From: Maricaulis maris
GTDB taxonomy: Bacteria > Pseudomonadota > Alphaproteobacteria > Caulobacterales > Maricaulaceae
Length of the DNA: 64,000 nucleotides
Assembly: GCF_003634045.1 (NCBI RefSeq)
Contig: NZ_RBIM01000006.1
Span: 1 to 64,000 of the forward strand
Reading direction: 5' to 3'
The translations under genes and the position numbers were made by a program. Every line of letters begins with the position of its first letter. Positions within the stretch are counted from its first letter, which is position 1. The notes beneath the pieces are model-generated. The model was not told the origin of the DNA. It saw only the letters and a list, made by a program, of their open reading frames with translations, and did not search any database. Shown one piece after another: positions 50,179-57,843 of this stretch.

Positions 50179-50380
50179 CAGTCGTCCCTCCCGTGTCAGT
50201 GGCCAAGCCCGTTGAACCATCAAGCTGATCGAGCAGGCTGGCGAACCGGTCCGGAACCCCCTCCTCCACGACATCGGCGTAGAGCTGGCGCAATTGTCGG
50301 CCGAGCAAGTCTTCGCGCACCCGCTCGATGGCAAGTTCGCTGAGCTCGGTCGGGTCGTGTTCCGGTGGTGAGTTGGACAT
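50168..50380 (-). CDS. nepR: Anti-sigma factor NepR
   Basis: The protein is 70 residues and begins MSNSPPEHDPTELSELAIERVR. The NepR core is LLGRQLRQLYADVVEEGVPDRFASLLDQL, whose two helices bind sigma regions 2 and 4. Under stress phosphorylated PhyR captures NepR and frees the sigma factor. It overlaps the start of ecfG, is divergent from phyR and is preceded by an EcfG promoter. Confidence 0.93.
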   Translation of the reverse strand: MSNSPPEHDPTELSELAIERVREDLLGRQLRQLYADVVEEGVPDRFASLLDQLDGSTGLATDTGGTTDES

Positions 50381-50429
50381 GGCAATTCCTGCTGTCTTGG
50401 CAATGAAAACCGGCTGCGTGCCCTCAAAC

Positions 50430-50454
50430 AACGTCTTGGCCGACAAATGGTTCC
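50430..50454 (-). promoter_or_regulatory. EcfG-type promoter for nepR-ecfG-phyK
   Basis: On the minus strand GGAAC (50454-50450) and CGTT (50433-50430) have 16 bases between them, 50 bp before nepR. It gives positive autoregulation of the sigma factor operon. Confidence 0.85.
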
Positions 50455-50473
50455 CGTCTTTGTATACGACAAT

Positions 50474-50498
50474 GGAACCAGGCGCCGATCCGTGCGTT
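50474..50498 (+). promoter_or_regulatory. EcfG-type promoter for phyR
   Basis: GGAAC (50474-50478) and CGTT (50495-50498) are separated by 16 bases, 33 bp before the phyR ATG. It is back-to-back with the nepR promoter. Confidence 0.85.
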
Positions 50499-50531
50499 TC
50501 TACGCGATGGAGTCTATGTGTGGGAGCCACA

Positions 50532-51338
50532 ATGTCCAACGCCGAACTGATCCGACCGCATATTCCGCTGCTGCGCCGCTATGCCCGCATCCTGTCTGGA
50601 TCGCAGGCGGTCGGCGATGCCTATGTATCCGGCGCGCTCGAGGCGCTGATCTCCGGCAAGCTGTCACTTCGCGCCGACCTGCCGGCGCGCGTCGCCTGCT
50701 ACAAGCTTTTCCAAGACAGCCTGCCGCTGCAACGCGGCCGGCTCGAAGTCCTGCCCGGACGCCCGGGCGATGTCGGTACGCCGAGCCAGCTTGATACGGT
50801 GTCCGCGGAAGCGCGACAGGCCTTGTTGTTGAGCGCCGTCGAGGAGTTTTCGCGGCGCGATATCGGTCTCATCCTCGACATTGCCTTCCCGCGTGTCGAT
50901 ACGCTGCTCGCCGAGGCCCATGCCAGCCTGCGCGCCGGCCTGGCCAGCGAGATCCTGATTATCGAGGACGAGCCGATCATCGCGCTCGATCTCAAGACCA
51001 TCATCGAGTCCGATGGCCACACCCACACCGGCATCGCGCGCACCCGCGACGAAGCCGTAGCGCTCGCCGCCGGGACCCGGCCACAGCTTATCCTGGCCGA
51101 TATCCGTCTCGCCGACGGTAGTTCCGGGGTTGATGCCGTGCAGGATATTCTGACCGAGTTCGAAGTACCGGTGATCTTCATCACCGCCTATCCGGAAACC
51201 CTTCTCACCGGCGAACGCCCGGAGCCGACCTATCTGATCACCAAGCCTTTCATGCCGGAAACCGTGCTGGCGACCATCTCCCAAGCCCTCTTCCTCGCCA
51301 AGCGCGAGCGGCAATCCGAACCGGCCGCCGCGGGCTGA
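50532..51338 (+). CDS. phyR: PhyR, response regulator with sigma-like domain
   Basis: The protein is 268 residues. The N-terminal sigma-like domain (1-135) mimics EcfG but lacks DNA-binding function. The receiver domain (about 140-262) has the acidic pocket IIEDEP, the phosphoacceptor Asp190 in ILADIRLADG, the Thr/Ala region FITAYPE and Lys238 in LITKPF. It is the central partner switch of the general stress response. The start at 50532 has a weak GGGAGCC ribosome site. A strong terminator follows at 51371. Confidence 0.94.
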   Translation: MSNAELIRPHIPLLRRYARILSGSQAVGDAYVSGALEALISGKLSLRADLPARVACYKLFQDSLPLQRGRLEVLPGRPGDVGTPSQLDTVSAEARQALLLSAVEEFSRRDIGLILDIAFPRVDTLLAEAHASLRAGLASEILIIEDEPIIALDLKTIIESDGHTHTGIARTRDEAVALAAGTRPQLILADIRLADGSSGVDAVQDILTEFEVPVIFITAYPETLLTGERPEPTYLITKPFMPETVLATISQALFLAKRERQSEPAAAG

Positions 51339-54537: not shown

Positions 54538-54630
54538 GGACAAACCTGCGACTAATTGTCATTTGCTTGAAAACCGGATAGGCGTTTATCGCATTGATAT
54601 GAGCGAAAGCCATCCGTGAAAGGGAGTTCC

Positions 54631-55491
54631 ATGGGTATCAAGCGTCGCACGCGCATCTGGACATCTGTCGGCACCGCCGCCCTGCTGGGAGGGTTGACCG
54701 GCTGCAGTGACCCGGCGGACGCGCCACCCAGCCCGGATACCCACACGGAAGCCGCCGCAATGCCGGCCACCGCACCAGGTTTTTCCGAAGGTGAAGGGGA
54801 AGGTGGCGAGGGCGGCGCGTCAGGCGGTGAGTTCGGCATTGATCCCGTCGAGGCCGAGACCAACCCAGTCATTTACCTCACCGCGCTGGAAGTCATGCGC
54901 GCTCACTATCTCGCCGGCATCGACGCTTTCCAGGCCGGCGAGCGGACGGCGGGCGCGGAAATGTTCGCCCACCCGATCTCGGAGATCTATATCGATTTCG
55001 AACCGGTTCTGGAGAGCCGTGGGGCGCCCCTGTTCGGCGATACCATGACGGACGCATCGGTCGCCCCCTATGGCGGTGAGAGCGATGAAGCGATAGCCGC
55101 CCGGGTCGCCGATGTGGTGGCCGCAATCGACGCTGCCTCAACCTTCGCGCCGCGCAACCAGCTCTCGCCGGCCGGTGTCCATGCCCGCGTGCTGACCGAC
55201 CTGATCGAGCGCGCAGCCCTGCAGTATGAAGTCCTGGCAAGCCAGCCGGACGCGCACGAACCCTATCTGGACGGTTATGGCTTTGCCCGCGCCGCGCAGC
55301 GTTATGCCGGCAATCATCTGGAACAAATCGCGGAAGGCGATCCCGACCTCGCGCTGCAGCTCGGCCGCGCCATTGCTGCAATCACGGCCGCCTTCCCGAC
55401 CGCAACGCGACCCGCGACGCTGTCCGGCGACAGCCAGAGCTTGCTGGCACTTGCCGCCAATGCCCGGGCCGGCGCCGACGCCCTGCGCTGA
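54631..55491 (+). CDS. Lipoprotein of unknown function
   Basis: The protein is 286 residues. A lipoprotein signal peptide ends in GGLTGC (Cys near 24), followed by a Pro/Ala/Gly/Glu linker and then a helical domain (LTALEVMRAHYLAGIDAFQAGERTAGAEMFAHPISEIYIDFEPVLE, residues 86-131) that continues in helices to the end. It is divergent from the PiuC-like gene. I do not recognise a family; the helical His-containing domain faintly recalls imelysin-type proteins but lacks a clear signature. The ATG at 54631 has an AGGGAG site. Confidence 0.65.
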   Translation: MGIKRRTRIWTSVGTAALLGGLTGCSDPADAPPSPDTHTEAAAMPATAPGFSEGEGEGGEGGASGGEFGIDPVEAETNPVIYLTALEVMRAHYLAGIDAFQAGERTAGAEMFAHPISEIYIDFEPVLESRGAPLFGDTMTDASVAPYGGESDEAIAARVADVVAAIDAASTFAPRNQLSPAGVHARVLTDLIERAALQYEVLASQPDAHEPYLDGYGFARAAQRYAGNHLEQIAEGDPDLALQLGRAIAAITAAFPTATRPATLSGDSQSLLALAANARAGADALR

Positions 55492-55728
55492 CATCCCGCC
55501 TTTGCGTGTGACGACGGACACGCGCGCGGCCCAACGATTTTGCGATGATCATTCAAGCAACCTCCCTCACCCCGTGAGGGGGGTTGAAAGTCTTGGAGGA
55601 ACAAAATGCTGGCATGGGCAGCCCGCATAACTTTAGGCAATCCATGACGGCGGAATCGACGAACAAATTCGGGTTGCTTGGCGTTTTGATGCAGAATTCG
55701 ACGTCCAGGCGCACACGGAGCGAAACAG
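55492..55728. other. 237-bp leader region before the ETR1-like gene
   Basis: There is no long gene. A small CCTCAC/GTGAGG inverted repeat lies near 55563-55580. It is followed by a well-placed GGAGG and a 13-codon frame at 55605 (MLAWAARITLGNP) ending about 80 bp before the next gene. This could be a leader peptide or chance. Confidence 0.4.
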
Positions 55729-56112
55729 ATGGGCTATTTCGACATCAATAATTTCATGCCCCACGGGATGTGTTTCCTCTGGCGACCAGAATTGGTCGGC
55801 ATGCATGTCATCGCCGATCTCGCCATTGCGCTCGCTTACTTCTCCATTCCGATCACCATCATGATTTTCCTGCGCCGGCTGGAACGTACCCCGCCCTTTC
55901 GCTGGGCGTTCATCATGTTCGGAATTTTCATTTTGTTCTGCGGCATCAATCACGTGATGAATATCATCGTGCTCTGGTACCCGCTTTACTACATCGAGGC
56001 CGTGCTCAAACTCTTCACGGCGGCAGCCTCGGTTGCCACGGCCGTCCTGATGTTGCCGCTCGTCCCGGTCTTGCTTGACCGGTTCACCCGACTTTCAGAC
56101 GCAGAAGGATAG
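55729..56112 (+). CDS. Stand-alone ethylene-receptor-like (ETR1-type) membrane sensor domain
   Basis: The protein is 127 residues with three membrane spans (about 25-48, 57-80, 88-115). It follows the plant ETR1 N-terminal domain closely: Asp30 in ADLAIALAYFSIP, aromatic and basic residues in FLRRLERTPPFRWAF, and the copper ligands Cys71 and His75 in ILFCGINHVMN. In plants and cyanobacteria this domain binds Cu(I) and ethylene and is normally fused to a histidine kinase. Here it ends after the third span, and the kinase is encoded separately 10 bp downstream. Ligand binding is inferred. Confidence 0.85.
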   Translation: MGYFDINNFMPHGMCFLWRPELVGMHVIADLAIALAYFSIPITIMIFLRRLERTPPFRWAFIMFGIFILFCGINHVMNIIVLWYPLYYIEAVLKLFTAAASVATAVLMLPLVPVLLDRFTRLSDAEG

Positions 56113-56121
56113 TCTCCAGCA

Positions 56122-57843
56122 TTGGCCGCCACCGCCAAACCTTCTTCGCCCCATCGTCATGGCGACGCCGATGAGTACGAGACACTGTCCGGACTGTTGC
56201 ACGCCTATCGCACACCGGTTGCGATCATCCTGTTCGGTATCATGGTTTCGCTGGCGCTCTTCTTTGCGGCCTTGGTCGGCCAGAGCCGGGACAAGGAGCT
56301 GGATTTCCGCAGCTATGCCCAGTCGCGCATCATCGAGCTGGACGGCGCCATCTCAACCCTCGACGTCGAGCTGCGCCAACTTGCCCAGGCCATTGACAGT
56401 GGCCTGAGTCCCGAAGCTGCGGTCCGGATTTTCGACGTCGCCGAAGTCTCGCAGCAAATCCCGATCATCCGTGACATGGGGATTGTTGAAAACGGGCGGC
56501 TGACAGGAGCGATTTCACCCGAGGTCGGGCGCCAGGCGCTGCAGGAAATCAATCTCCTGATCGCCCGCCAGCCGCCATCGGAACAACCGGTTGTCATTCC
56601 CCTGACCGACGCGGAAGGGCGCAACAGCCGGTTCGCCCTGGTCCAGGCCCTGCCGGACCGCCCGACGGCCCGCGCCTATATTGTCTCCGATTTCGACGTG
56701 ATGCTGGCCAGCCCCGTCGGACCGGTCGATCCGCTCTGGGTCGTGGTCAACATTACCGACCGGGCACCAACCCACGCCCTTGCCGGCACGCGAGAAATGC
56801 AGACGGCAGCCAATCCGACAGACATCAACATCAGCTTGGCACTGGAAAGTGCGCCCTTTCTCGTACACTGGATTGCCGCGCCACCCTATTCGGATATTCG
56901 CGCGACATTGCTCCCGCGCCGCTCATTCCTGATGCTGACTGGTCCGCTGCCATGGGTGGTTCTGTTCTCGTCATTCTTTGCAACGGCCACCATCGGGGCG
57001 ATCTCGTTGAAAGACGCCCGGCGGGCCGACGAAGTCCGGCGCGAAGTGACACGCAAGACTGCAGAACTGAGCCGGTCGAACGCCATTATCGCGGCCAAGA
57101 ATGCCGAACTGGACCGTTTTGCCTCCCACGCCTCGCATGATCTGCAGGCGCCGTTGCGCGCCATGAAGGGGATTTCCTCGCTCCTGGTCGAACGCCAACT
57201 CAACCTTGACCAACGATCCCGGGAAATGCTGGAGCGGATCAATCGCGGGGCCGACCGGGCCCAGCGCCTGGTCCAGGATCTGCTGACTTATACCCGCGCC
57301 GAACGCAAGGAAGCGCGCGTCGAACGGATCGAACCCGATGAAATTCGCAGCGAGATCGAAGAATTGCTGGGTGCCGTCATTGCCGATGCCGATGCCCGGC
57401 TCGAATGGGCGCTTGACGGCCCAATTCACGCCGATCGTTTCCTGTTGGTTCGCATGTTCCAGAACCTGATCGCCAATGCCATCAAATACCGTCGCGACGA
57501 GCGCCCGCTGGTGCGCATTGCCTCGCGCGATGCCGGTGACAACATTCTGATCAGCGTAAGCGACAACGGTATCGGCATCGACAAGGCCTATTTCGGGCGC
57601 ATTTTCGAGGTGTTTGAACGCCTGCATGGCGGCGATGCCTATGAAGGCACGGGTATCGGTTTGGCATTGTGCCAGCGCGCCGCCGAGCTTCACGGCGGCG
57701 ATATCAGCGTCGCCTCCTCACCGGGAGAAGGCTCCTGTTTCACCGTCCGCCTGCCCGCGAACCTCGCCCCGCAGATTGATGCCGGTGACAACGACGAAAC
57801 CGGTGGCGACAGGCCGCCACGTCTGGTGTCGAACGACCGCTGA
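56122..57843 (+). CDS. Membrane-bound sensor histidine kinase downstream of the ETR1-like gene
   Basis: The protein is 573 residues. TM1 is at about 31-53. A periplasmic region follows (54-270, CHASE-like by length and helix start, with LDVELRQLAQAIDSGL). TM2 is at about 272-293. The HisKA H-box is FASHASHDLQAPLRAMKG. The HATPase has the N-box NLIANAIKYRR, G1 DNGIGIDKAYFGRIFEVFERL and G2 GTGIGLALCQRAAELHGG. No receiver domain is present. It appears to start at a TTG. It probably works with the ETR1-like protein; no response regulator gene lies next to it. Confidence 0.87.
   Translation: MAATAKPSSPHRHGDADEYETLSGLLHAYRTPVAIILFGIMVSLALFFAALVGQSRDKELDFRSYAQSRIIELDGAISTLDVELRQLAQAIDSGLSPEAAVRIFDVAEVSQQIPIIRDMGIVENGRLTGAISPEVGRQALQEINLLIARQPPSEQPVVIPLTDAEGRNSRFALVQALPDRPTARAYIVSDFDVMLASPVGPVDPLWVVVNITDRAPTHALAGTREMQTAANPTDINISLALESAPFLVHWIAAPPYSDIRATLLPRRSFLMLTGPLPWVVLFSSFFATATIGAISLKDARRADEVRREVTRKTAELSRSNAIIAAKNAELDRFASHASHDLQAPLRAMKGISSLLVERQLNLDQRSREMLERINRGADRAQRLVQDLLTYTRAERKEARVERIEPDEIRSEIEELLGAVIADADARLEWALDGPIHADRFLLVRMFQNLIANAIKYRRDERPLVRIASRDAGDNILISVSDNGIGIDKAYFGRIFEVFERLHGGDAYEGTGIGLALCQRAAELHGGDISVASSPGEGSCFTVRLPANLAPQIDAGDNDETGGDRPPRLVSNDR

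Follow-up and report, generated by a model that had tools for sequence, protein, structure and literature searches.

The window analysed here is a stretch of 64,000 nucleotides from the marine alphaproteobacterium Maricaulis maris (contig NZ_RBIM01000006.1, positions 1 to 64,000 of the forward strand). It carries two adjacent genes in which the parts of an ethylene-receptor-like protein are encoded separately. The first specifies a stand-alone protein of the ETR1_N family, that is, an ethylene-binding-domain-like (EBD) protein, and the second specifies a sensor histidine kinase. The pair is probably a split ethylene-receptor-like sensor, a two-subunit, Cu(I)-dependent membrane sensor for which we infer the complex, the metal (Cu(I)), the ligand, and which way the signal runs. 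A two-protein sensor of this kind had been proposed in an earlier, sequence-only reading of the window. The split architecture that it described is upheld by the sequence, by the conservation of the pair, and by the presence or absence of the two genes as a unit, and the two inputs that it foresaw are upheld anatomically, as an EBD and a modelled periplasmic domain. The coordinates of the features are collected in Table 1. Other loci and genomes are referred to, where needed, by our own numbers (L and G, respectively; the window is locus L042).

The EBD Protein

The product of the first gene matches the ETR1_N profile (PF25487) with 115.3 bits and an E value of 1.5e-33 over residues 22-116, compared with a curated cut-off of 27 bits. 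This is its sole Pfam match at E 0.001, and no NCBIfam match was found at the same threshold. All the checked positions of the ETR1 ethylene site are matched, namely D30, Y37, I40, P41, I68, C71, and H75, together with K94 in helix 3. The corresponding ETR1 residues are taken to be D25, Y32, I35, P36, I62, C65, and H69. Three transmembrane (TM) helices were predicted at residues 20-50, 58-83, and 87-108 in a structural model and at residues 30-48, 55-73, and 89-107 by hydropathy. Hence, the profile, the alignment, and the predicted helices bear out the description given by the sequence-only reading of a 127-residue protein with D30, C71, and H75, three spans, and no kinase. In a paper on these receptors (PMC11819568), residues D25, C65, H69, and K91 of ETR1 are named, and seven residues are reported to be required.

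The gene is conserved among relatives. The window protein shares 80-94% amino acid identity with the seven other Maricaulis copies, and in the seven comparisons within the genus, dN ranged from 0.03 to 0.12 and dS from 0.69 to 1.15. Judged by these substitution rates, the EBD gene is real and is under strong purifying selection, because dN is far below dS and the identity remains high in all seven copies. A joined model of the EBD and the kinase, used as a single-chain proxy for the complex, reached a pLDDT of 75.4 and a pTM of 0.54. The 50 Foldseek matches listed for this model were mostly sensor domains, and none could be recognised as an EBD. In sequence searches of the PDB with the EBD, the best match in one search had an E value of 0.11 (EmrB), and another search gave none at E 0.1.

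The Gene Pair in Maricaulis

The stop codon of the EBD gene and the start of the kinase gene are separated by 9 bp. The sequence-only reading placed a kinase with its own periplasmic sensor 10 bp downstream; the kinase with a predicted sensor is there, and the distance has to be corrected by one base pair. In the window, the two genes share one reading frame, in which a single TAG and three sense codons separate them. This common frame is also found in L024 and L028, and the starts of the two genes lie in different frames in the other five of the eight Maricaulis pairs.

An ETR1_N match over the cut-off was found in 8 of 19 Maricaulis genomes, in open frames of 127-255 aa that correspond to proteins of about 125-131 aa. 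Exactly these eight genomes have a near-full-length match to the kinase beside the EBD (46-75% identity beyond the window itself). The remaining 11 genomes, two of which are only 65% and 69% complete, have neither gene, and their best kinase match is confined to the kinase core. None of the 19 genomes was seen to carry just one of the two genes. The split is therefore a stable architecture of Maricaulis, with the pair being present or absent as one unit. Together with dN values well below dS, the retention of the pair in all eight EBD-bearing genomes takes the observation as a whole beyond chance, and it is confirmed. The conservation of the pair among relatives, which the sequence-only reading put forward as a check, holds in these eight genomes and also in pairs outside the genus.

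The neighbourhood is likewise stable. In each of the seven other Maricaulis loci examined, the pair is flanked by genes for a PKHD hydroxylase, a lipoprotein-like protein of 291 aa, a trhO-like rhodanese, and a GST, with a TonB receptor gene nearby in six of these seven stretches. The cultured species Maricaulis alexandrii and M. parjimensis are among those that carry the pair. The lipoprotein-like gene (window 54616-55491, 291 aa) has no Pfam match and also precedes the pair in these seven loci. In three pair-free genomes (L257, L258, L261), the lipoprotein and rhodanese genes are about 50-100 bp apart, and neither gene of the pair lies between them. The stretches fetched from seven other pair-free genomes showed no lipoprotein gene, and in the last one (L267) the contig ends in the rhodanese gene. 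A gene for PhyR, the general stress response regulator, is present at window positions 50328-51338, more than 4 kb upstream of the pair, and nothing ties PhyR to the HisKA kinase. Several weak candidates from Maricaulis were discarded. Sub-cut-off matches in L021, L022, L044, and L045 (20.9-22.8 bits) have similar translations that contain no EBD site, and the single open reading frame (ORF) read among them, in L048, encodes a 360-aa membrane protein of another kind; these matches belong to a different family of membrane proteins.

The Partner Kinase and Its Sensor Region

A hydropathy scan of the window kinase revealed hydrophobic segments at residues 34-52 and 269-287. The region between them was modelled from a 15-row alignment, and the best of five models reached a pLDDT of 79.7 and a pTM of 0.65 (pLDDT 55.5-79.7 for all five). 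When this model was compared with the PDB by Foldseek, KinD, PcrK (a CHASE-domain kinase), LuxQ, and DctB were among the best matches, with E values of 3e-5 to 2e-3, an rmsd of about 5-11, and TM scores of 0.34-0.62 by target and 0.28-0.41 by query. In the window kinase, no Pfam Cache or CHASE domain was matched at E 0.001. In the kinase of L109, dCache_1 reached 27 bits against a cut-off of 45, and the partner kinase of L110 has CHASE3 instead. On the basis of the model, the sensor of the window kinase is presumed to be a PDC/Cache-like domain held between two TM helices.

The same layout recurs outside the window. Two hydrophobic segments flank a presumed periplasmic region in all 18 partner kinases of split pairs (described below) by hydropathy. 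A third, weak segment lies inside this region in L116, and the second segment of L205 is divided in two. When the 70 non-split loci from named genomes were scanned for hydropathy in a simple way, none had a second two-TM sensor following the EBD, and five had one weak hydrophobic segment.

Table 1. Features of the split pair in the window and SCO1/SenC genes beside split EBD genes at other loci
Feature	Position	Strand	Basis and remarks
Stand-alone ETR1_N (EBD) gene	55729..56112	+	ORF, 127 aa, without output domain
Partner sensor histidine kinase gene	56122..57843	+	ORF, 573 aa, TTG start
GGAG, possible ribosome-binding site of EBD gene	55717..55720	+	8 nt before ATG, read from sequence
AAGGA, possible ribosome-binding site of kinase gene	56105..56109	+	In the end of the EBD gene, 12 nt before TTG, read from sequence
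HGMC (H12, C15) of the N-terminal PHGxCxxW motif of bacterial EBDs	55762..55773	+	Alignment
D30 codon (ETR1 D25 position)	55816..55818	+	Alignment
C71...H75, Cu(I)-ligand positions (ETR1 C65, H69)	55939..55953	+	Alignment; PMC11819568
TM1 block of kinase, residues 21-55	56182..56286	+	Mean pairwise identity 0.79, 18/35 residues invariant (8 Maricaulis)
Fast-evolving region of kinase, residues 56-268, presumed to be a periplasmic PDC/Cache-like sensor	56287..56925	+	Identity 0.35; model; Foldseek
TM2 block of kinase, residues 269-302	56926..57027	+	Identity 0.69 (8 Maricaulis); hydropathy
HisKA domain	57109..57303	+	Pfam
HATPase_c domain	57433..57759	+	Pfam
SCO1/SenC gene directly upstream of split EBD	L118:4352-4960		PF02630, 148 bits
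SCO1/SenC gene directly upstream of split EBD	L119:4358-4945		PF02630, 135 bits
SCO1/SenC gene directly upstream of split EBD	L109:5326-5889		Similarity to L118

Fused and Split EBDs in Other Bacteria

Outside Maricaulis, the two parts are usually fused. Among 200 genomes of the order, 20 had a match over the cut-off, and these comprise seven Maricaulis genomes with split genes and 13 genomes of other genera with frames of 358-650 aa. In all 13 cases, the EBD is fused to a kinase; seven of these kinases match the core of the window kinase, and six contain HWE or HisKA_2 domains. In the class (385 genomes), 28 genomes had a match; of the short frames beyond the window, those in G338, G441, and G210 proved to be split pairs, the one in G266 resembles a broken fused gene, and the one in G399 is cut by a contig end. 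In the phylum (398 genomes), 28 genomes also had a match, and the sole short frame besides that of the window genome was a 48-aa fragment. Of 157 loci from named genomes, the 80 best comprised 10 stand-alone EBDs (125-131 aa from the start of the match), one of 200 aa (L130), and 69 of at least 331 aa.

Split pairs also occur in a second alphaproteobacterial order, that of G441. Matches were found in 13 of its 142 genomes, at 14 places. At eight of these, a stand-alone EBD of about 130-175 aa is followed by a kinase, and at six the two are fused; G988 holds one of each. Two lone lineages contribute one pair each, L108 (from G338) and L110 (from G210). In total, 18 of the 21 short-frame EBDs that were read form split pairs, each followed by a kinase on the same strand. 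The stop and start codons of the two genes overlap or touch in several pairs (L023, L108, L109, L110, L118, L119, L208, L209, and L210). The other three short frames are L107, L111, and L130. L107 was rejected as a split pair, as its short EBD ORF precedes a short kinase fragment and has the look of a fused gene that broke; L111 runs into a contig end and was also left out of the 18. L130 was counted among the non-split rows. In this locus from Bdellovibrionales (L130:721-2821), an EBD with a coiled-coil-like tail (204 aa in all) is closely followed by a HisKA kinase encoded on its own, whose N-terminus has one hydrophobic stretch; this is possibly another way of splitting a receptor. As a further observation made by eye, genes for a small receiver protein and then a receiver-kinase come after the pair in L109, L118, L119, and L205-L211, and many of these loci have more single receivers nearby.

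The origin of the split EBDs was examined with a tree of 104 EBDs, 15 of them split. The alignment has few columns, and the most divergent split EBDs (L110, L210, and L211) were left out. Fourteen of the 15 fall into one clade with an SH-aLRT support of 97, and L182, which is L108 in a named record, sits apart from them on a long branch. A single origin of the conserved split EBDs is compatible with these sequences, because the likelihood improves when all 15 are kept in one group (p-AU 0.74). A tree that places the Maricaulis EBDs among fused EBDs from the same family was 20 log units worse and was not rejected (p-AU 0.21).

Ligand Site and Copper

The ligand site is kept in most split EBDs. 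All ten checked positions are retained in 15 of 18, including all eight from Maricaulis. H12 of the N-terminal motif is kept in 15 of 18 split and 88 of 89 other EBDs, and C15 is kept in 16 of 18 and 89 of 89, respectively. C71 and H75 are invariant in the 89 non-split EBDs, rows that came from patterns and cut-offs favouring conserved EBDs. The remaining three split EBDs are altered. In L211, nine of the ten positions are changed, among them D, Y, P, C71, and H75, while the frame and the downstream kinase are kept. This altered EBD is located at L211:4911-5373, and L208 and L209, of the same genus code, keep the site. In L210, D is changed to E, C71 to G, and two other positions differ; in L110, D is changed to N, K to Y, and two others differ. 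Both keep the kinase.

A possible link to copper is found in the neighbourhood of some pairs. SCO proteins are copper chaperones, and in three genomes of the second order the gene immediately preceding the split EBD gene belongs to the SCO1/SenC family (Table 1). L109 and L120 represent one genome, and L206 and L207 represent the same genomes as L118 and L119. The SCO1/SenC protein of L118 contains CxxxC and a C-terminal His. No SCO1/SenC gene was found in the other loci among the 106 scanned (some genomes twice), including the window and the Maricaulis loci. In another set of 13 loci, some of which have short flanks, a SCO1 match was found only in L206 and L207. The SCO1 neighbourhood may be a single event, and two of the three genomes share a genus. 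At L108, a metal-ABC-transporter/Zur-like cluster was recognised by eye, and a DUF3299 gene lies upstream.

Proposed Mechanism and Its Weighing

In the proposed mechanism, the 127-aa protein would be a three-helix, ETR1-type membrane subunit that has neither a coiled coil nor an output domain. C71 and H75 would hold Cu(I), D30 would position H75, and ethylene or another small pi or hydrophobic ligand is predicted to bind there. The subunit would lie beside the two TM helices of the kinase and alter autophosphorylation by helix-helix contact, with TM1 as the first candidate. One kinase could thus integrate two inputs, a membrane or Cu(I) signal relayed by the EBD and a periplasmic signal detected by its PDC/Cache-like domain. 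Residues 1-130 of AzoEtr1, fused to GST, bind ethylene in yeast (PMC11819568), and because of this binding, an isolated EBD can serve as a functional ligand-binding module.

TM1 was considered as the place of contact owing to its conservation. In the Maricaulis pairs, the mean pairwise identity is 0.85 for the EBD, 0.79 for TM1, 0.80-0.81 for HisKA, and 0.35 for the periplasmic part. In a control kinase of similar divergence from six Maricaulis genomes, the values are 0.41 for the TM helix entering the periplasm, 0.36 for the periplasmic part, and 0.78 for HisKA. In another control, more conserved overall and taken from eight genomes, they are 0.85 (TM1), 0.74 (periplasm), and 0.98 (HisKA). 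Within Maricaulis, TM1 of the split kinase thus appears unusually constrained in comparison with the less conserved control and less clearly so in comparison with the more conserved one.

Several points weigh against a Cu(I)-dependent two-subunit sensor. The physical contact of the two proteins, by TM1 or otherwise, is one that we infer, and the case for TM1 is built on two controls, one of which itself has a TM1 (0.85) more conserved than its periplasmic part (0.74). A TM1 pattern common to the kinases of both orders, first taken by eye, did not hold. The identity of the second-order kinases to the window kinase is 0.20-0.31 for TM1, 0.08-0.14 for the periplasmic part, and 0.33-0.41 for HisKA. 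Conservation of a TM1 interface between the orders is not borne out by sequence identity, because these TM1 values are no better than the 0.26 found between the window kinase and the L110 kinase with its CHASE3 sensor. Additionally, no response regulator adjoins the pair in the Maricaulis loci. Finally, Cu(I) or ligand binding does not seem to be needed in every pair and may be dispensable in some, because L211, L210, and L110 (3 of 18) keep the partner kinase despite changed site residues.

Other explanations of the pair were compared with the split ethylene-receptor-like sensor. The EBD subunit could sense or handle Cu(I) itself, as copper status or a copper-redox or oxygen state, and report this rather than ethylene to the kinase. 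The SCO1/SenC genes directly upstream in L118, L119, and L109/L120 and the metal-transport cluster and DUF3299 gene at L108 speak for such a role. However, no SCO1 match accompanies Maricaulis or, within flanks that are short in some cases, the other split pairs, two of the three cases belong to one genus, and all seven ethylene-site positions, which go beyond the copper ligands, are kept in 15 of 18 split EBDs, so that copper sensing as such is regarded as rather unlikely. The loss of D, Y, P, C, and H in L211, which still keeps the frame and the kinase, and the loss of C in L210 would fit an EBD that acts mainly as a structural or chaperone subunit of the kinase, with ligand binding being secondary and losable. 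Yet the retention of every checked position in 15 of 18, including all eight Maricaulis copies, makes this distinctly unlikely.

It could also be that the genes are merely co-transcribed, with the EBD working alone or with another partner and the kinase sensing by its periplasmic domain only. Adjacent genes can be functionally separate, the contact is putative, and the between-order identity of TM1 is no better than that to a kinase with a different sensor. Nevertheless, the pairing recurs in 18 of 21 short-frame EBDs across two orders and two lone lineages, neither gene occurs as an orphan in 19 Maricaulis genomes, and TM1 is conserved inside the genus; plain co-transcription is thus improbable. 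A recent break in a fused receptor, through a nonsense mutation or an assembly error, is brought to mind by the common frame in the window, L024, and L028. This idea is refuted by the Maricaulis comparison, the sensor architecture, the dN/dS values, and the frames: all eight Maricaulis pairs are split, five of them in different frames, the kinase has two TM helices and a sensor of its own that were not seen in fused EBD kinases, and the EBD is under strong purifying selection. It has practically no chance of being right. The split ethylene-receptor-like sensor therefore remains the probable reading. As a broader and tentative possibility, which we would not expect to hold in full, the EBD of bacteria might be an ancient, detachable subunit for Cu(I) sensing in the membrane, which docks onto PDC/Cache kinases by TM-TM contact in a three-component, dual-input arrangement, is loaded in some lineages by a dedicated SCO1-type copper chaperone, and can lose its metal site and still stay a kinase subunit.

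Relation to Known Systems and Significance

The window protein resembles the ETR1-type plant receptors, SynEtr1 (Synechocystis slr1212), and AzoEtr1 (Azospirillum) in its three-helix EBD with Cu(I)/ethylene residues and, as in the bacterial members, in the histidine-kinase output. In those proteins, however, the EBD forms the N-terminal part of the kinase chain; in the window the two are separate proteins, and two TM helices and a sensor belong to the kinase itself. AzoEtr1 is an EBD-PAS-HK protein of 525 aa (PMC11819568), and bacterial EBD proteins carry a wide range of output domains (review, PMC7700396). The PDC/Cache-type kinases KinD, PcrK, LuxQ, and DctB are similar in the modelled sensor domain and in the HisKA and HATPase_c core. 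The window kinase differs in being paired with an EBD subunit and in having a sensor sequence below the Pfam thresholds.

Separate accessory proteins that feed a sensor kinase, as proposed here, are exemplified by LuxP-LuxQ and LiaF-LiaS. We know of no such accessory-protein system that uses an ethylene-receptor domain as a separate subunit. In the RegB/PrrB systems, a SCO/SenC gene (SenC/PrrC) is found near a membrane sensor kinase, as it is at L118, L119, and L109; those systems have no EBD, however, and the window locus has no SCO match. In searches of open-licence literature on ethylene receptors, their domains, and SCO and copper chaperones, none of the papers listed announces a split EBD-kinase pair in its title or abstract opening.

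If the proposed reading is correct, ethylene-receptor-like sensing would be placed in Maricaulis, a genus that, to our knowledge, is not known as a plant associate. A natural receptor subunit of 127 residues would become available for structural work, in a family where sequence searches turned up no solved structure related to the membrane domain, and the pair would offer a genetic way into EBD signalling in the absence of a fused coiled coil. How bacterial EBDs obtain copper is a question for which the SCO1 neighbours offer a testable idea. Ligand binding would be separated from kinase output within the ethylene-receptor family.

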